From NCBI RefSeq assembly GCF_001543895.1, contig NZ_JYIJ01000016.1, positions 248,001-312,000 on the forward strand: 64,000 nucleotides of DNA. Direction: 5' to 3'. This document shows positions 26,227 to 34,861 of this stretch, piece after piece (within the stretch, counting starts at the first letter, position 1; the number at the start of each line of letters is the position of its first letter). This DNA comes from Carbonactinospora thermoautotrophica. Lineage in GTDB: Bacteria; Actinomycetota; Actinomycetes; Streptomycetales; Carbonactinosporaceae. The translations under genes and the position numbers were made by a program. Under the pieces are notes generated by a model. It was not told where the DNA came from. It worked only from the letters and a program-made list of their open reading frames with translations, and made no database searches.

Positions 26227-27846
26227 CTACGACAGGCGAACGGCGGCGAGCGCCTCGAAGGGGCTGCCCACCCGGCCCCGGACGGTCTCCCAGCGCAGCG
26301 CGCAGGAGCGGCCCGCGATGTCCAGGGTGGCCAGGGCGTTGTCGTACCAGGGGCCGCGCTCGATCACCCAGTCGATCGGGGTGTCCACGGCCCGGGCGGT
26401 CGCGGCGAGGACGCGGCACCCGAACCGGGCCGGCCCGGTCAAGGCGAGGCTGTTCGCGTGCCGCAGGGCCGGGCTGAGCGGGTTGCGGATCGGCGAGCAC
26501 ACCACCTGGTACACCTGCGCCGGGCCGATGCCGAGCACCCGGGCCAGGTACGAGAAGTGCACGTCGCCGGAGAGGAAGCTCACCATGGCCGGCGCGGGCC
26601 CCCGGCGCCCGGCCGCGACCTCGGTGACGAGGCGGGCCATCGCGTCGAAGGAGCGCCGGAACGCGCCCCAGTGCTCCAGGTCGAGCGCCTGCCGGATCCG
26701 CTCGACCGGCCCGGTCGCCCAGCGGCCCCAGGCGCCGTCGCCCACCGCCTCACTCCAGCGCTCCACCTCGTGGACGGCGCGCGGCAGCAGGTACGGCAGG
26801 GTGCTCGCCACGAGCAGGTGGTCGATGCCCCCGGTGGCCTGGGCGTCGAACCACTTCCAGGTGGCGTCGGGCAGGATGTCGCGGGCACCCGGGTCGAGCC
26901 GGCGACCGCAGCGGGTGTCGAGCACGACCAGCCGGGCGGATCCGAAGTCACGGGCGTAGCTCCACCGGTACGCGCCCGGCTCCTGGTCGGCCCGCCAGGC
27001 GAATTCGTCCAGGACCGGCCCGGCGTCCCCGGGCGTCTCCCGGAGCGCGGCGAGCACCGGGTCGGCCGCCCGCTCGGCCGGTGACAGGTTGCCCAGGTGC
27101 TGGTAGATCCAGTACGCGGCGAGCCCGCCGGTGATCCGCCCCCGCCACCACGGCTGCTCCGCGATCCACGCCCGCCACGCCGCGGAGGTGTTCCAGTCGT
27201 CGCGCACGTCGTGGTCGTCGAAGATCATCCAGGTGGGCACGGTGGACAGCAGCCAGCGCACGGCCGGTTCGCTCCAGGCGAGCCGGTACAGGTGCGCGTA
27301 CTCGGCGAAGTCGGCGACCTCCGCGCCGGGCGGGGTGTCGAGATCCCGACGCGCGCGGATGAACTCTCGCATCGCCGCAGAGGTCTCGTCCGCGTACACC
27401 TGGTCGCCGAGCAGGAGCAGCGCGGCGGGCCACTCCTCGTCAGCGGCCCGGGCCAGCCGGTGGGCGTACGCGCAGAGCATGTCCACCCCGTAGGCGTCGT
27501 CGCACGTCGCGTCATGCCCCCGGCTGGTGCGGCAGGAGCCGAACACCAGCCGCAGCGGCCCGTCCGGGGCCGGCGTGCGCAGCCGGCTCGGTGGGAACGG
27601 CGAGCCCGGCTCCGGCCACACCCGCTTCCCGTCCAGCTCGACCGTGTACGGGGTGGCGGTGCCCGGTTCCAGCCCGGTGACCTCGACCAGGGCGTAGTGG
27701 TGCCCGTGCACGGTGAAGGTACGGGCCGCGTGGACGCGTCCGCCGGCATCGACCCGCACCTCGCCGGGCGCGTCGGTCTCCACCCACACGGTGGCCGTGG
27801 TCCCGTCGGTGTGACGGAGCAGCGGCCCCAGCACGAGTCGTGGCAC
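26227..27846 (-). CDS. PhoD-like phosphatase / metallophosphoesterase
   Basis: 539-residue metallophosphoesterase. An N-terminal fibronectin-like domain (about 1-90) is followed by the PhoD catalytic domain with the metal motifs FGSCRT, LLLGDQVYADE, FDDHDVRDDWN and LSGDVHFSY in the expected order. Such enzymes hydrolyse phosphate mono- or diesters with Ca/Fe or similar metals. No signal peptide is visible, unlike secreted PhoD, so it may be cytosolic. The start is GTG 27846 behind GGGAGG; the ATG at 27939 adds an unconserved leader. LLM and PhoD genes may be one transcript. Confidence 0.88.
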   Translation of the reverse strand: MPRLVLGPLLRHTDGTTATVWVETDAPGEVRVDAGGRVHAARTFTVHGHHYALVEVTGLEPGTATPYTVELDGKRVWPEPGSPFPPSRLRTPAPDGPLRLVFGSCRTSRGHDATCDDAYGVDMLCAYAHRLARAADEEWPAALLLLGDQVYADETSAAMREFIRARRDLDTPPGAEVADFAEYAHLYRLAWSEPAVRWLLSTVPTWMIFDDHDVRDDWNTSAAWRAWIAEQPWWRGRITGGLAAYWIYQHLGNLSPAERAADPVLAALRETPGDAGPVLDEFAWRADQEPGAYRWSYARDFGSARLVVLDTRCGRRLDPGARDILPDATWKWFDAQATGGIDHLLVASTLPYLLPRAVHEVERWSEAVGDGAWGRWATGPVERIRQALDLEHWGAFRRSFDAMARLVTEVAAGRRGPAPAMVSFLSGDVHFSYLARVLGIGPAQVYQVVCSPIRNPLSPALRHANSLALTGPARFGCRVLAATARAVDTPIDWVIERGPWYDNALATLDIAGRSCALRWETVRGRVGSPFEALAAVRLS

Positions 27847-28109
27847 GGCGCCTCCCGATCGGTTCTCCTGCTTGATACACGTTCGAACCGCACCGCCCGT
27901 TCCGCGCCCGGGCCGCTGTCGATCAGCGGGTGGGCGCACACCAGCTCAAGACCACGGCAGCCGGTGGCGGGGACGGCCGCCGGAGGGTCGCGGCTCCGAA
28001 CCCGCCATCACGCCAGAGGCGTGGAACATTAGGCTGCTATCACCCCGCTACCCGCATATCGGTACATACTTGGAGATAACTGGGTATCTCGGCGTTGGGG
28101 AGGCACGCG

Positions 28110-29099
28110 GTGGGCGATCTGGGTGTCGATCTCGGTACCACGAACACTGTGGTGTGCCACAACCGCCGCGGGGTCATCCTCAACGAGCCGTCGGTCATGG
28201 CGCTGCGCGCCCACCGCGGGCGTCCCAAGGTGCTCGCGATCGGGCTGGAGGCGCGGGCGCTCGTGGGCCGGGTACCGGCCGGGCTCAGCGTGGTGCGACC
28301 GTTGCACGACGGTGTGATCACCGACCTGGAGACGGCCCGGATGTACCTGGGGACGGTGCTCCGCCGGATCGGTGTCCGGCCGTGGCAACGCGCCCGGCTC
28401 CGCGCGGCGATCGGCGTACCCATGGGCGCCACCGCGCTGGAACGCCGCGCGCTGCTGGAGGCGGCCGAAGAAGCCAGGATCGGCAAGGCGATGCTCATCC
28501 CCGAGCCGATCGCCGGTGCGGCGGGCTGCGGGCTCGACCCATTGGAGCCGCGCACCCACATGGTGGTGGACGTGGGCGGCGGCATGGCGGAGGTGACGGC
28601 GTTCTGCTACGAGGGGTTGCTGGCGCACCGGTCCTGCCCGCTCGCCGGGGACGAGATGACGCTCGCGGTGTACCAGTACCTGCGGGAGGAATACCAGATC
28701 ATCGTGGGTGAGCTGATCGCCGAGCAGGTCAAGGTCCGCACCACCGAGGACACCGCGCCGATCGTCGTCGAGGGCCAGGACGCCGCCACCGGCCGCCCGC
28801 GGGTGGTCACGCTGGCCCCCGAGGAGGTGCTGGAGGCGATCCGGCCGGTGACCGACGCGGTCATCCGCACGCTCGCCGCCTGCCTGGAGGACCTGTCCGC
28901 GCAGAGCGTGAGCGACGTGATGGCGGAAGGCGTCCTGACCATCGGCGGGGGCTCGCTGCTGCGTGGATTCGACAAGCTGCTGGAGGACGCGTTCGGCTTC
29001 CCGGTCCGACGCGCGGAGCGGCCCCTCACCTGCGTGGCGGAGGGGGCCGTCCGCTGTCTGAGCCGGGAGTCCCTGCTGAAGGCGTACGCGGCGGGCTGA
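28110..29099 (+). CDS. MreB/Mbl-like bacterial actin
   Basis: 329-residue actin-family protein that should polymerise under the membrane and guide wall synthesis. Phosphate-1 motif VDLGTTNTVV, phosphate-2 motif VVDVGGGMAEV and the adenosine motif IGGGSLLRG are all present, as is PEPIAGAAG, typical of MreB. The start is GTG 28110, six bases after GGGGAGG; a TTG at 28095 lies over that ribosome site. No mreC or mreD follows. It instead converges on, and overlaps by 74 bases, the RodA-PBP2 fusion gene. Streptomycetes carry solitary MreB-like genes (Mbl) used in spore-wall formation; this may be the counterpart, which is inference. Confidence 0.88.
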   Translation: MGDLGVDLGTTNTVVCHNRRGVILNEPSVMALRAHRGRPKVLAIGLEARALVGRVPAGLSVVRPLHDGVITDLETARMYLGTVLRRIGVRPWQRARLRAAIGVPMGATALERRALLEAAEEARIGKAMLIPEPIAGAAGCGLDPLEPRTHMVVDVGGGMAEVTAFCYEGLLAHRSCPLAGDEMTLAVYQYLREEYQIIVGELIAEQVKVRTTEDTAPIVVEGQDAATGRPRVVTLAPEEVLEAIRPVTDAVIRTLAACLEDLSAQSVSDVMAEGVLTIGGGSLLRGFDKLLEDAFGFPVRRAERPLTCVAEGAVRCLSRESLLKAYAAG

Positions 29100-31968
29100 C
29101 CTTCAGGATCTGCGTCTGGTGCGCCAAGAAGTACTGCAGGGCCCGCTTGACGACAGGTCCGGACGTCCGGGATCCCTGACCGCCGCCACGGATGTACGAC
29201 GTCATCACGACGGCTGGTCGGTCCATGGGCGCGACCGCGGTGAACCAGGCGTCCGGGGCTCCGCCTGGATTGCTCGGGTTCTCCGACGTACCGGTCTTGG
29301 CGCCCGCCGCCACCGGCAGGTCCGACAGCACGGCGGCCGTACCGCCGCTCACCGCCTGCCGCATGCCCTCCCGGACCGGGCCGAGCGCATCGCCGAACGG
29401 CAACGGCTGCGCCGGCGGCGCCGGCAGCGCGGTGGTCGTGCCGTCGGCCGTGCTGAAGGCCAGCCCGAGGCGTGGGGTCACCAGGCTGCCGGTGGCGACG
29501 GCGGCCGTCCACCGGGCGGCCTGCAACGGGGTGGTCGTGATATAGCCCTGCCCGATGCCGAGGATCACGCTGGAGCCGGGGTACCAGACACCGCCGGCCG
29601 CGCGGACCGACTGCGGGGTGCCGAAGTACCCGGCGCTCTCCCCCGGCAGGTCGATGCCGGTCGGCCGGCCGACTCCCAACGCGCTGCCGACCTGGTGGAT
29701 CCGGTCCGGGCCGAGGGCGTAGGCGAGCTTGTAGAAGTACACGTCGTTGGACCAGGCGATCGCCTGGACGAGGTTCTGCGGCCCGAACCCGCGCCAGTTG
29801 CCGAACGTGTGACCGCCGAACGTGTACGAGGCGCCGGTGGGGATGGCCTTGTCGGGCGGCAGCACCGGGTACACCATGTCGGCCGCCGCGACCACCAGCT
29901 TGAACGTCGACCCCGGCGGGCCCACCACCTGCGTGACGTGCTGCAGCATCGGGCTGCCCGGCGTGGCGACGGCCTTGCGCAGCGCGCGGGCGTCGACCGG
30001 GGGACCGTACAGGTTGTTGTCGTACGCGGGCAGGCTCGCCATCGCGAGCACCTGGCCGGTGCGCGGGTCCATGGCGACGACCCCGCCCAGGTGGCCGCGC
30101 CGCTCCCCGATCCGGCCGGCCAGGGCGTCTGCGAGCGTTTTGGTGATCTCCCGCTGCAGGCCGAGGTCGATCGACAGCCGCAGGGCGGCGCCGGGCACCG
30201 GCGCCTGGCGCGGGCCGAGGGTCACCGGGACGCCGAGCGGGTCGACGTACACGCACTGGTAGCCGTCGATCCCCCGCAGGATCGGGTCATACTGCTGCTC
30301 GATGCCGGCCCGGCCCACGATCCCGCCGAGCGGCAGGTTCGGCCAGCGGCTCTCGTCCTGCGGGGTGGCGACCCCGACGAACCCCAGCAGCGGGGCGAGC
30401 ATCGCGCCGTGCGGGTAGACCCGGCGCGGATCGGGGGCCACCACCACGCCGGGGATCCGGGCCGCGCTGACGCGGCTTCCGGTGTCGGCCGGCACGACGG
30501 CCACCCGGGTCGACAGCCTGGTCCCGGCCGCGGCGAGGGTCCGCCGCAGCTGGTCGACCGGCTGCCCGACCAGCGCGGCGAGCCGGCGCAGGTCGTCCGG
30601 GCGGCGCAGCAGCGCGGGGATGACGACGATCTGGTTCTGGGCGGCGTTGATCGCGAGCGGCACGCCGTGGCGATCGGTGATGATCCCGCGTGGGGCCGGG
30701 ATCCGCACGCAGCGGGTCATCTGCGTCTCGCCGGCCCGGCGCAGTGACTCGCCCCGGACCTCCTGGAGGTGCCAGCCGTACGCGGACAGGCCGGCCAGCA
30801 ACCCGGAGACGCCGAGCGCGGCGAACCGGACCAGCCGGGGTCGCGGGTTGTGCCAGCGCGGCAACGCCCAGAGCCGGCGGCGCACCCCGTCCCGTCGCAC
30901 GCCGAGAACCACGCCGAGGGCGGCCAGGTGTACGAGTGCGGCGGTACCCCCCTGGCTGACCAGCGGGAACGGGATGCCGGCCAGCGGCAGCGCGCCCAGG
31001 TTGCCGCCGAGCGAGACCACGGCCTCGGCGCCGAGCAGGACCGCGAACCCGGCACAGGTCAGCATGCCTCGACGGGTGCGGGCCACCCGGCTCGCCAGCG
31101 CCACCCACCAGACCAGCACCACGGTGGCGAGCACCGCGCTGGCGCCCGCCACCAGGCCCCACTGTTGGACCAGGCTGGCCAGGGTGAGGTCGTGCTCCCG
31201 GCCGGGCAGGTACTCGGCGCGCAGCCGGTGCAGCGGGTCACGAGCCTGGCCGAACAGGCCGCCGGAGGCGAGCGCGATGTGGGCCTGGCGGATGGCGTAG
31301 CCGGGGCCTTCGGTGGACTCCGACCCGGCCAGGTACGCCTGCAGGCGGGCCAGTTGGTGGGGCCGCAGCATCCGGACCGCGAGCGGGGCGACGAGCACCA
31401 CGCTGCCGAACAACGGCAGCAGGAACCGCGGCGGGATGCGGCTCAGGATCAGCAGCCCCGCTGTCATGGCGGTGAGCAGCATGGCCGTGCTCAGGTCCGG
31501 CTGCAGCAGGGTGAACCCGATCGGTACGACCGCCAACACGACGGCGAGGAGGAACCGCCGCCAGGCGGGCCGGTTGGATCCCAGCACGTTGGCGAGGAGG
31601 AGCAGCAGGCCGAGCTTGGCCAGCTCCGAGGGCTGGAACGTCAGCTCGCCGATCGCCAGCCACCGCTTCGCGCCGTACCGCTCGATCCCGAAGAGCGACA
31701 CGGCGAGCAACAGCACGATCGAGAGGCCGTAGCAGGCCCAGCCGAGCACCGCGAGGCGTTCGACGTGGACCCGACGCATGAGCACCAGCAGGACGAGCCC
31801 GGCGGCCACCGCGACCAGTTGGCGCGCGGCGAGCGACCAGCTAGCCGCCGCGTACAGGTTGAGGGCGCCCAGGATGACCAGCGTGAACGCCGCGACCAGG
31901 GCGAGCACGTCGAACCTGCGGCCCCGGACGTCCCGGTGCCGCCGCTGCGGGAGCGAGCCGGTCCACAC
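29026..31968 (-). CDS. RodA-PBP2 fusion: SEDS glycosyltransferase plus class B transpeptidase
   Basis: A single 980-residue protein. Residues about 1-385 are a SEDS polymerase (RodA/FtsW) with ten hydrophobic helices and family blocks TFQPSELAKLGLLL, LLQPDLSTAMLL, GPGYAIRQAHIALASGGLFGQ (split), PGREHDLTLASLVQQWG and FPLVSQGGTA. A further hydrophobic helix (about 400) leads into a class B penicillin-binding domain: PRGIITDRHG, catalytic S687 in GSTFK, S740 in WSNDVYFYK (an SxD pattern as in PBP2) and KTGTS at about 891. It should therefore polymerise and cross-link peptidoglycan. Start GTG 31968 is 5 bases after GGGAGG; the TTG at 31983 is less likely. It follows the pseudokinase gene by 11 bases, so the two form an operon. 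Confidence 0.93.
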   Translation of the reverse strand: MWTGSLPQRRHRDVRGRRFDVLALVAAFTLVILGALNLYAAASWSLAARQLVAVAAGLVLLVLMRRVHVERLAVLGWACYGLSIVLLLAVSLFGIERYGAKRWLAIGELTFQPSELAKLGLLLLLANVLGSNRPAWRRFLLAVVLAVVPIGFTLLQPDLSTAMLLTAMTAGLLILSRIPPRFLLPLFGSVVLVAPLAVRMLRPHQLARLQAYLAGSESTEGPGYAIRQAHIALASGGLFGQARDPLHRLRAEYLPGREHDLTLASLVQQWGLVAGASAVLATVVLVWWVALASRVARTRRGMLTCAGFAVLLGAEAVVSLGGNLGALPLAGIPFPLVSQGGTAALVHLAALGVVLGVRRDGVRRRLWALPRWHNPRPRLVRFAALGVSGLLAGLSAYGWHLQEVRGESLRRAGETQMTRCVRIPAPRGIITDRHGVPLAINAAQNQIVVIPALLRRPDDLRRLAALVGQPVDQLRRTLAAAGTRLSTRVAVVPADTGSRVSAARIPGVVVAPDPRRVYPHGAMLAPLLGFVGVATPQDESRWPNLPLGGIVGRAGIEQQYDPILRGIDGYQCVYVDPLGVPVTLGPRQAPVPGAALRLSIDLGLQREITKTLADALAGRIGERRGHLGGVVAMDPRTGQVLAMASLPAYDNNLYGPPVDARALRKAVATPGSPMLQHVTQVVGPPGSTFKLVVAAADMVYPVLPPDKAIPTGASYTFGGHTFGNWRGFGPQNLVQAIAWSNDVYFYKLAYALGPDRIHQVGSALGVGRPTGIDLPGESAGYFGTPQSVRAAGGVWYPGSSVILGIGQGYITTTPLQAARWTAAVATGSLVTPRLGLAFSTADGTTTALPAPPAQPLPFGDALGPVREGMRQAVSGGTAAVLSDLPVAAGAKTGTSENPSNPGGAPDAWFTAVAPMDRPAVVMTSYIRGGGQGSRTSGPVVKRALQYFLAHQTQILKVSPPRTPSAGTPGSDSGRPPPPRR

Positions 31969-31979
31969 CTTCGCCTCCC

Positions 31980-33155
31980 TCAACAGGTGCCGCCGGTCGC
32001 GGGGAACGGCAGCGGGGGCCCAGCGACGCGGGCGGGGGTGTTCGTGATGACGATCACCGCGATCGCCCGGCCGTTCGGGAGCTGCAGGCGGTTCAGGGCG
32101 ATGGCGTGATCGCTGCCCGGTTTCAGCGTGACCTCACCCCCTGGGCGGCTGACCCGCGCGCCCGTGCAGCGGTCGATGATCTCGAAGCTCCAGCCCACCC
32201 GGAGCGGCTTGGTGCCGGGGCGGGCGCGGACCAGAACGCGGATCGGGCAGGGTTTGCCGGGCGCGCACCGCTGAAGCGGCCGAGCGTCGACCGCGGTGAG
32301 CGGGCCCGCCGACGCCGCGGCGAGGACCGGCACCGGGCTGGGCGGCCGCCCGGTGGTCCCGGGACGGGCCGACGCCGTGGCCTCGGGCCTGCGCAGCAAC
32401 TGCAGGCTGCGGGTGATCTCCTCGCGGAGGAACGCGTACTCCAGCCAGACCGCGGTGGCGAACACCGTCACCGCCACGGCCACCCGCCACAGCCACGGCC
32501 AGGCCGCGCGCAGGGTCTGCGACAGGCGGCGCGGCGGCCGGGCGGCCTCCTCCACAGCCTCCTCCGCGGGGACCGGTGGCACCGGGTCAGACGACGGCGG
32601 GGGCGCCGGCCTCATGCCGAGGAGCGTCGCCGCGAGCGCGCCCAGCTCACCGCGGGCCCGTTCGGCTCCCTCCGGACCGCCCAACGCGGCCCGCAGCTCG
32701 GCCGCTGGTTGCCCGACGCCCGTGACGATCAGGGGGTTTCCAGCGGCCAGCCGCTCGAGCAAGGCCAGCAGGTGGGACTGCGAGGCCGCGGCGTGCCGGC
32801 CCCGGGACGAGGTAGCGGCGGCGAGCTGGCCGACCAGCGCGACGGCGGCTTCCAGGTCGGCGCGCCTGGCCTCGTCGTCCTGGGCTGCCGGGGTGTCGCC
32901 CAACACCCGAACCTCACCGCCGGGGCCGATGTGGATGTCCTCGGCCCGCAGCCTGCCGTGGACCCGTCCGGCGGCGTGCCGGGCCTCCAGCACGCCGAGG
33001 ATCTCCGCGGCGATCACCGCGCCCTGCGCCGGGGAGAGCCGTGCCACCCGCAGCAGGCGGGCCAACGAGACGCCAGGGCCGGCGGGCCGGGACGGCGCGC
33101 CGGCGGGCCCACTTTCCAGGGGCTCCTCCTGGACAGGAACTCCCAGATACGCCAT
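31980..33155 (-). CDS. Membrane protein with degenerate kinase-like domain
   Basis: 391-residue protein. Residues 30-175 look like the C-lobe of a Ser/Thr kinase, with VHGRLRAEDIHIG (66-78) in place of the catalytic HRDLKPxN loop and VLGD where DFG would be. The N-lobe with glycine loop and lysine is missing, so it is very probably inactive. After a Pro-rich segment there is one transmembrane helix at 222-243, then a Ser/Pro/Thr linker and an extracytoplasmic domain with four cysteines (RCAPGKPCP, DRCTG, GGTC). The start ATG 33155 is preferred over 33221, but its ribosome site is weak. It is co-transcribed with the RodA-PBP2 fusion, suggesting a scaffold or sensor for it. Confidence 0.7.
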   Translation of the reverse strand: MAYLGVPVQEEPLESGPAGAPSRPAGPGVSLARLLRVARLSPAQGAVIAAEILGVLEARHAAGRVHGRLRAEDIHIGPGGEVRVLGDTPAAQDDEARRADLEAAVALVGQLAAATSSRGRHAAASQSHLLALLERLAAGNPLIVTGVGQPAAELRAALGGPEGAERARGELGALAATLLGMRPAPPPSSDPVPPVPAEEAVEEAARPPRRLSQTLRAAWPWLWRVAVAVTVFATAVWLEYAFLREEITRSLQLLRRPEATASARPGTTGRPPSPVPVLAAASAGPLTAVDARPLQRCAPGKPCPIRVLVRARPGTKPLRVGWSFEIIDRCTGARVSRPGGEVTLKPGSDHAIALNRLQLPNGRAIAVIVITNTPARVAGPPLPFPATGGTC

Positions 33156-33244
33156 CGACGATCGCCAGCTCTCGGATGAGGCGGATCCGCACGCGTTCAC
33201 TGCATTGCGTGATTCCCTCAAAAAACTTCTCTAATCAGTACATT

Positions 33245-33967
33245 TCAGGCATAAGCCTGGCCGGATAGGCGATCCCAGTCACCTGAGGAGCACGCAGAGC
33301 GGGCTGGGCAGCCGGCCGTCACCCCGAGCCGTCGCCCCGACTCGGGCGGTATCCCTTCGGACCACTCCACCGGTCTGGTCATGGCGAGGGCGAAGCGCAC
33401 CAGGTCCGCGGGGCTGCCGATCGCGAACTTGCGGCGCACCCGGCGCAGGTACGTCTCGAGGGTGCCGACGCTGATGCCCATGTGCCGGGCGGCCTGCGCG
33501 TGGGTACAGCCGTCCGCGATGTGCCGCAGCACCTCCTGCTCGCGCGGTGCCAGCGGTGGGATGGCGGCCGGGTCCGGCGCTGGGCAACGCAGCGCCCGGG
33601 CCACGGCCCACGGCAGGAAGACACCTCCCTGGGCGACCGTCACCACGGCGCGTTCGAGTACGTCGCCGCCGGCTTTCCTGGGCACGTACCCGCGGGCTCC
33701 CGCGTGCAGCACGGCCGCGACGTCGGCCAGGACCGTCGACGAGGACGTGACGAGAACCCGGCTTTCCCCGGCGGTGCGACGAATCTCCGTGCGCGGGCAG
33801 GCCGGGAGGGACGAGTCGAGATCCAACAGGGTGACGTCGGGCGCTCGGTCCCGCTGGCCACGCTCGCCGTCCGCGGAAACCAGGCGTATCCGCGGGTGTG
33901 CCGCGAAGACCTCCGCGAGGTCGTGGTGCAGTAGGGGATCGCCGGCGACGACCGCAAGCGCGATCAT
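33245..33967 (-). CDS. NarL/LuxR-family response regulator
   Basis: 240-residue regulator. The N-terminal receiver domain has a DLDSS segment with the likely phosphoryl aspartate after TLLDL; other acidic-pocket residues are weak, so phosphorylation is uncertain. The C-terminal LuxR HTH is clear: LAPREQEVLRHIADG, then QAARHMGISVGTLETYLRRV. A 40-residue tail follows. ATG 33967 is preceded by GAGGAG. No histidine kinase is adjacent; the gene lies 89 bases upstream of the pseudokinase gene on the same strand and may lead that operon or regulate it. Confidence 0.85.
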   Translation of the reverse strand: MIALAVVAGDPLLHHDLAEVFAAHPRIRLVSADGERGQRDRAPDVTLLDLDSSLPACPRTEIRRTAGESRVLVTSSSTVLADVAAVLHAGARGYVPRKAGGDVLERAVVTVAQGGVFLPWAVARALRCPAPDPAAIPPLAPREQEVLRHIADGCTHAQAARHMGISVGTLETYLRRVRRKFAIGSPADLVRFALAMTRPVEWSEGIPPESGRRLGVTAGCPARSACSSGDWDRLSGQAYA

Positions 33968-34426: not shown

Positions 34427-34861
34427 ATGGACGTATTGAAAAATCACATCAGCGCCTTGCAGAGGCTCCTGGCCGTGATCGGCCTCCTGGCCCTCCTGAC
34501 GGGCATCGGCTTCGTCCAGGGCGGCCCGGCATCCGCCGCCGCCAAGTCCGACTGCTTCAACAAGGGCGGCGGCAAGGTCAAGTGCCTCGTCGACGTCAGC
34601 ACTGACTCCGCCGAAGGCGGGATCGACATCGAGGTCAAGAACATAAGGGCCCTGAGCGGGGACGAGATCAGGTCGCTCGAGGACTCCCTCAACCGCGCGT
34701 TCGCCGACATCGACCTGCTCAGTGCCGACCTGGAAGACATCAGGAGCGAGGTCAAGCGCATTTTCGAGAACAGCCTGGGCGAGCCTGTCGGCCGGCAGCA
34801 GATCAAGGTCTGCTTGGAGGGCCAGAGCGAAGGCACCGCCGTCGCCAGGTGCCTGCAATGA
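34427..34861 (+). CDS. Small secreted Cys-containing protein, unknown
   Basis: 144 residues. A hydrophobic signal peptide (LLAVIGLLALLTGIGFV) ends at a plausible ASAAA cleavage site near residue 38. The mature chain of about 105 residues has four cysteines (DCFN, KCLVD, VCLEG, RCLQ), enough for two disulfides, and a central acidic helix-rich part (SGDEIRSLEDSLNRAF, DLLSADLEDIRSEVKRIF). I do not recognise a family. The start ATG 34427 has GTAGGGA about 10 bases upstream. The long palindrome-rich leader suggests tight regulation. Confidence 0.75.
   Translation: MDVLKNHISALQRLLAVIGLLALLTGIGFVQGGPASAAAKSDCFNKGGGKVKCLVDVSTDSAEGGIDIEVKNIRALSGDEIRSLEDSLNRAFADIDLLSADLEDIRSEVKRIFENSLGEPVGRQQIKVCLEGQSEGTAVARCLQ

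Follow-up and report, generated by a model that had tools for sequence, protein, structure and literature searches.

The closest described counterparts of the system analyzed here are the RodA-PBP2 wall synthases of Escherichia coli and Thermus thermophilus (PDB 8tj3 and 6pl5), in which a SEDS polymerase and a class B penicillin-binding protein (PBP) are the products of two genes or the parts of an engineered fusion. In a 64,000-nucleotide stretch of Carbonactinospora thermoautotrophica DNA (NCBI RefSeq assembly GCF_001543895.1, contig NZ_JYIJ01000016.1, positions 248,001 to 312,000; hereafter the window), the same two enzymes form a natural single chain, and RodA-PBP2 structures are the top matches of this chain among profiles of solved structures. 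The SEDS-then-PBP order of the chain is that of the E. coli fusion engineered for cryo-electron microscopy, as described in PMC10449877, which also cites the Rhodococcus sp. RHA1 genome for natural SEDS-PBP fusions.

According to PMC13327600, a mutant RodA-PBP2 of E. coli and MreB constitute a minimal elongasome that lacks MreCD and RodZ, and MreB contacts the C-terminal tail of RodA and the N-terminus of PBP2; these are the two ends joined in the window fusion. The nature of the coupling between MreB and RodA-PBP2, and what makes MreC, MreD and RodZ necessary, are open questions that the same paper approaches through E. coli bypass mutants. A natural set of MreB and fused RodA-PBP2 operating without these three proteins would reveal the minimum set and what can take the place of the three.

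We see about an even chance that the window locus encodes the central part of a variant Rod-type module for wall synthesis of this kind, working without MreC, MreD and RodZ. The observations behind this reading are the fusion itself, the single group formed by the sampled members, the conserved junction, the intact active-site residues, the linkage to mreB and to a third gene, and the lack of detectable MreC, MreD and RodZ in most carriers. As in the canonical elongasome and the Streptomyces spore wall synthesizing complex, an MreB gene lies beside RodA/PBP2 functions; unlike in these systems, the locus brings its own third protein, and MreC, MreD and RodZ were undetected in 21 of 24 carrier genomes (Pfam models). 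We found no report of the trio (fusion, MreB and third gene) in the open-licence PubMed Central literature. Natural SEDS-PBP fusions are known, and what appears to be new is their MreB and third-gene context.

The fusion gene occupies a minus-strand frame (31983..29026) that opens with a TTG codon and encodes 985 amino acids, in which a SEDS polymerase and a class B PBP are both complete; a GTG at 31968, five codons 3′ of the TTG, is an alternative in-frame start. The initial annotation had placed both enzymes in one stop-free frame at 29026-31968. This frame is real and its 31968 is the in-frame GTG; the strand, left unstated there, is the minus strand, and the plus-strand reading of the stretch is interrupted by stops. 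A Pfam search found three domains, each above its cut-off: the SEDS glycosyltransferase domain (PF01098, residues 26-364, 30892..31908, 216.5 bits versus a cut-off of 26.4), the PBP dimerisation/pedestal domain (PF03717, residues 428-587, 30223..30702, 86 bits) and the transpeptidase domain (PF00905, residues 633-949, 29137..30087, 152 bits). The two halves are connected by a cytoplasmic junction (residues 365-382, 30838..30891), delimited in the alignment of 49 members described below, and by a PBP membrane helix (residues 383-422, 30718..30837) predicted in an AlphaFold2 model; all these features lie on the minus strand. The motifs previously read in the sequence, STFK (S692/K695), SND (S745-D747) and KTGT (K896), were located, and the PBP half thus combines the PBP_dimer and Transpeptidase domains with the SxxK, SxN/D and KTG motifs of a class B PBP. 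Because one polypeptide carries both enzymes, its sequence predicts that polymerisation and cross-linking are coupled at an obligatory 1:1 ratio.

A scan of a collection of genome contigs revealed 61 related loci, of which 55 (L046-L100) were fusions with 44-61% identity to the window protein. Full-length fusions in a single frame were present in 48 of them and, together with the window protein, gave 49 aligned members; six other loci, shorter than 950 residues and cut by contig ends, were left out of this set. Among the 55 loci only L097 changes frame, at a place where its contig has a run of N. The hosts are Pseudonocardia, Actinomycetospora, Geodermatophilus, two Amycolatopsis, a Nocardioides metagenome-assembled genome (MAG), Dormibacterota MAGs, and MAGs labelled Chloroflexi, Bacillota, Frankiales, Actinomycetota or only bacterium. 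The earlier impression that such fusions are rare was borne out: a sample of 246 genomes of the class contained 5 carriers. No record of the phage collection spans 80% of the fusion. Three Omnitrophota loci (L101-L103) were rejected as fusions, because they contain separate adjacent genes in the order PBP, RodA; L101 and L103 also contain an MreB-like match.

The active-site residues of both halves are intact. In the SEDS half, D265, which we take to be the catalytic aspartate of the extracellular loop (region of D262 in E. coli RodA), is conserved in 49/49 members and E120 in 48/49. In the transpeptidase half, S692 and K695 as well as S745-N746-D747 are conserved in all 49, and K896 and G898 are invariant in an alignment of 45 sequences.

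Comparisons with several kinds of models assign the fusion to the RodA/PBP2 type. The best of all NCBIfam PBP models was pbp2 (383.2 bits, versus 144 for spoVD), rodA scored 227.9 bits versus 188.8 for ftsW, and profiles of solved structures favoured PBP2 over FtsI (305 versus 185) and RodA over FtsW (228 versus 160). The PBP tree also places the fusion with PBP2-type rather than FtsI-type proteins. By these sequence comparisons the protein is closer to RodA/PBP2 than to FtsW/FtsI, while it scores below both equivalog cut-offs (TIGR03423, PBP2/MrdA, 383.2 versus 455; TIGR02210, RodA, 227.9 versus 336.7). The elongation type deduced from the SxD form of the second transpeptidase motif is therefore upheld as an assignment, but not for that reason: the fused family varies at this motif, with SNN in four further members (L107-L110) and SDN in three members from Rhodococcus plasmids, so SxD is not diagnostic of PBP2.

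The segment that crosses the junction (residues 352-400) measures 47-50 residues in 49/49 members, and the positions L371-W372 and P382-R383 are conserved. The AlphaFold2 model of the fusion (m021182cdcbbb) has a mean pLDDT of 85.2 and a pTM of 0.76. Compared with PBP2 crystal structures, the PBP half of the model aligns over 503 residues (Z 46.5, root-mean-square deviation 3.7), and the fold matches listed for the model span this half only.

Phylogenetic trees were built from 30 of the 49 aligned members and added rows, including three Rhodococcus and four further members. The fused SEDS halves form a single group with support 100 (37 fused versus 13 unfused rows), as do the fused PBP halves (support 100; 37 versus 21 rows). 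Both groups sit on long separate branches, with stems of 1.15 and 1.41 changes per site, and the distances of the two halves are correlated (Spearman 0.87; 28 loci, Rhodococcus left out). The sequence groupings are consistent with one origin of the fusion, although unfused near relatives may be missed in these trees, because the references came from matches to the fusion query.

The gene next to the fusion (28095..29099, plus strand) encodes a divergent MreB, which exceeds the cut-off of PF06723 with 281 bits and stays below the NCBIfam thresholds (TIGR00904, 259.7 versus 365.75; NF010539, 283.8 versus 293). It is convergent with the fusion gene, whose 3′ end it overlaps by 74 bp. Of the 55 fusion loci, 50 contain an MreB-like gene, which runs opposite to the fusion in 40 cases and shares its strand in the other 10; in Actinomycetospora (L063, L065, L069, L073, L077, L079 and L089) it lies upstream on the same strand, unlike in most Pseudonocardia. 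Contig ends truncate four of the five loci lacking it; in the fifth, of P. dioxanivorans, the gene lies approx. 10 kb away. In 18 of the 24 carrier genomes the MreB of the module is the only one scoring above 200 bits.

The third gene (31980..33155, minus strand; 391 amino acids from an ATG at 33155, in an open reading frame that begins at 33221) ends with a stop codon that has a 4-bp overlap with the fusion's TTG. An iterated profile, built with no held-out check, detected it in 50 of these 55 loci, after one extra match at E 6e-4 (L047, 4167-5060) had been dropped. Four of the five loci without it start at a contig end. In Dormibacterota-like MAGs the third gene is divergent from mreB; the trio thus stays together despite differing gene orders, and it does so beyond a single phylum. 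Both MreB and the third gene are also present in each of the four other fusion genomes from the class survey.

The window's third protein has no Pfam match. Its model (pLDDT 83.7) contains a cytoplasmic kinase-C-lobe-like domain, which is also supported by profile comparison (residues 31-178, 32622..33065), a membrane helix (residues 212-255, 32391..32522) and an extracellular seven-strand beta-domain (residues 286-384, 32004..32300), all on the minus strand. Across 30 members of the family, four cysteines never vary: C297, C303 and C330 in the beta-domain and C391, the last residue. The family profile matches kinase C-lobes, including those of PknE and StkP (best E 7.5e-7); Pfam kinase families were matched by only 3 of the 30 members and not by the window protein, and the catalytic HRD and DFG motifs were unrecognisable in the alignment.

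RodZ consists of a cytoplasmic helical domain, one transmembrane segment and an extracytoplasmic beta-domain. The third protein shares this predicted layout, but differs from RodZ in having no match to RodZ_C (PF13464) among the 30 members, a kinase-C-lobe-like domain instead of a helix-turn-helix, and conserved cysteines. It also resembles the kinase non-catalytic C-lobe domain (KIND) of the actin nucleator Spire, another kinase-like fold devoid of an N-lobe (3rbw_A, Z 12.9, 143 residues aligned, root-mean-square deviation 3.9). Since true kinases score alike (Z 13.3), this likeness does not establish kinship with KIND.

The 24 carrier genomes were searched for the remaining components of the elongasome. 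MreC, MreD and RodZ_C were each matched in three carriers, which are the same in every case: the window's genome (G000), G080 and G081; one of the three MreD matches lies under the cut-off. In the sample of 246 genomes of the class, MreB was detected in 177 (E up to 1e-40) and MreC in 174 (E up to 1e-5). Only four genomes contain MreB without MreC, namely G102, G180 and G253, which are fusion carriers, and G099 (78% complete), in which no fusion was found. Carriers account for 3 of these 4 genomes and for 2 of the 173 with both proteins (G000 and G211); the association (Fisher p 4e-5) is to be read with the fact that the three carriers share one family.

The window's genome contains four SEDS and eight transpeptidase genes. 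Besides the fusion it has an mreBCD-pbp2-rodA set, ftsI and ftsW in a division cluster, and a pbpA-rodA cluster that includes two kinases, several of these gene names being assigned by similarity and position alone. Separate rodA and pbp2 genes, about which the initial annotation had asked, thus remain, and the fusion is no replacement for them in this genome. Among 26 genomes searched, 24 of them carriers, only one SEDS protein was found beyond the fusion in the carriers G067, G072, G074 and G075, in which the fusion may serve as the sole RodA; these are MAGs of uncertain completeness.

In the variant Rod-type module that we favour, the divergent MreB filament would orient or recruit the fused synthase, and the third membrane protein would couple MreB to the synthase or switch the synthase on, standing in for RodZ, MreC and MreD. 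The E. coli precedent of mutant RodA-PBP2 with MreB suggests, by analogy, that such a complex could function; we infer that the fused synthase is active and that the partners interact physically. In most carriers the module would be the sole MreB-dependent wall system, and in the window's genome a second one beside the complete canonical mre set. Actinomycetes probably use it to build the lateral wall or that of spores or buds, and carriers in which no RodA-type SEDS other than the fusion was found probably use it for vegetative elongation.

Several observations weigh against this reading. The window's genome (at other loci), G080 and G081 contain MreC, MreD and RodZ, which could serve the fusion as well. 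In 14 control genomes the models found MreC in 8, MreD in 5 and RodZ_C in 6, and the absences of MreD and RodZ are therefore weak. The MreB distances are only moderately correlated with those of the synthase halves (Spearman 0.42 and 0.39; 28 loci). L062, which does not start at a contig end, has no third gene in its locus, and several third proteins lack the kinase-like domain, among them shortened ones of some Pseudonocardia (L055 7172-7876, L058 7250-7936 and L095 7121-7858); this domain is therefore not essential everywhere.

The plasmid-borne fusions of Rhodococcus (approx. 50% identity) also fall on this side of the balance. They group with the window fusion in the trees, but in all three of them MreB is absent from the surrounding 8 kb and an intact third gene is missing, which means that the fusion is able to persist on its own, outside the module. 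These copies retain the junction motifs in 18 of 18 conserved cells. A role of the junction as an MreB docking site, which predicts loss of the motifs in such copies, is not supported by this result, and the conservation of the junction is no sign of docking. The RHA1 protein, known to us from its citation, presumably belongs to the same family. On the plasmids pRB29 (L111) and pRWAY03 (L113) the fusion lies amid genes for multicopper oxidase and metal transport, and pRB29 carries copC among them.

A stronger form of the proposal can be put forward only tentatively. In a self-sufficient minimal elongasome, MreB, the fusion and the kinase-derived, cysteine-bearing membrane protein would jointly replace MreC, MreD and RodZ; the set would have spread between actinomycetes and Dormibacterota-like soil bacteria, and would provide MreB-directed wall growth (e.g. 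of spores or buds) to polar growers without another MreB. According to PMC3296230 and PMC4255298, mreB is missing from mycobacteria and nearly all corynebacteria, and Streptomyces uses MreB for spores; PMC9686282 reports MreB annotated in all genomes of a study of Geodermatophilaceae, a family that buds by an unknown mechanism. In the genomes checked, the module gives an MreB-linked synthase to Pseudonocardia, Actinomycetospora and Geodermatophilus, which have no other strong MreB.

It is unlikely that the fusion merely adds one more RodA-PBP2 plugged into the ordinary elongasome of the host (MreC, MreD and RodZ) or its polar growth machinery, with nothing but the stoichiometry fixed. The mreBCD-pbp2-rodA set and RodZ of the window's genome, and the three matches in G080 and G081, would fit such a role, whereas the other 21 carriers gave no match to these proteins and the module supplies an MreB and a membrane protein of its own.

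We consider it rather improbable that the fusion is a specialised MreB-independent synthase (for stress, spores or a metal-rich niche) that moves horizontally with MreB and the third gene as loose companions. The persistence of the trio across gene orders and beyond one phylum speaks against it; the Rhodococcus plasmid copies, the patchy spread in the class and the position of Geodermatophilus sequences among those of Pseudonocardia in the SEDS tree speak for it.

About equally improbable is a third protein acting mainly as a sensor or regulator (pseudokinase signalling) rather than as a scaffold replacing RodZ and MreC. Its kinase-derived fold agrees with this role, as does the kinase control of actinobacterial wall complexes described in PMC3989709 and PMC4416010 (mycobacterial MviN with FhaA; in Streptomyces, MreC and PBP2 as targets of the kinase PkaI). 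The unrecognisable catalytic motifs, the scarcity of Pfam kinase matches and the members that lose the kinase-like domain while keeping the transmembrane and extracellular parts argue against it. Finally, a sequencing or assembly artefact merging two genes, for which we found nothing in favour, is ruled out for practical purposes by the 48 full-length one-frame fusions in other records and the near-constant junction length.

The module is flanked in the window by genes of other kinds. A PhoD-like phosphatase with a DUF7800 domain (26227-27939, minus strand) lies beside mreB; no such gene was seen at the loci where relatives carry the fusion. A LuxR-type response-regulator-like gene (33245-33967, minus strand) is located 23 bp upstream of the third-gene reading frame, possibly in one operon with it; it is not conserved in related loci and was rejected as a part of the module. 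Farther along, a plus-strand gene (34427-34861) with no Pfam or NCBIfam match encodes a 144-amino-acid protein that has, as judged by eye, a signal-like N-terminus.

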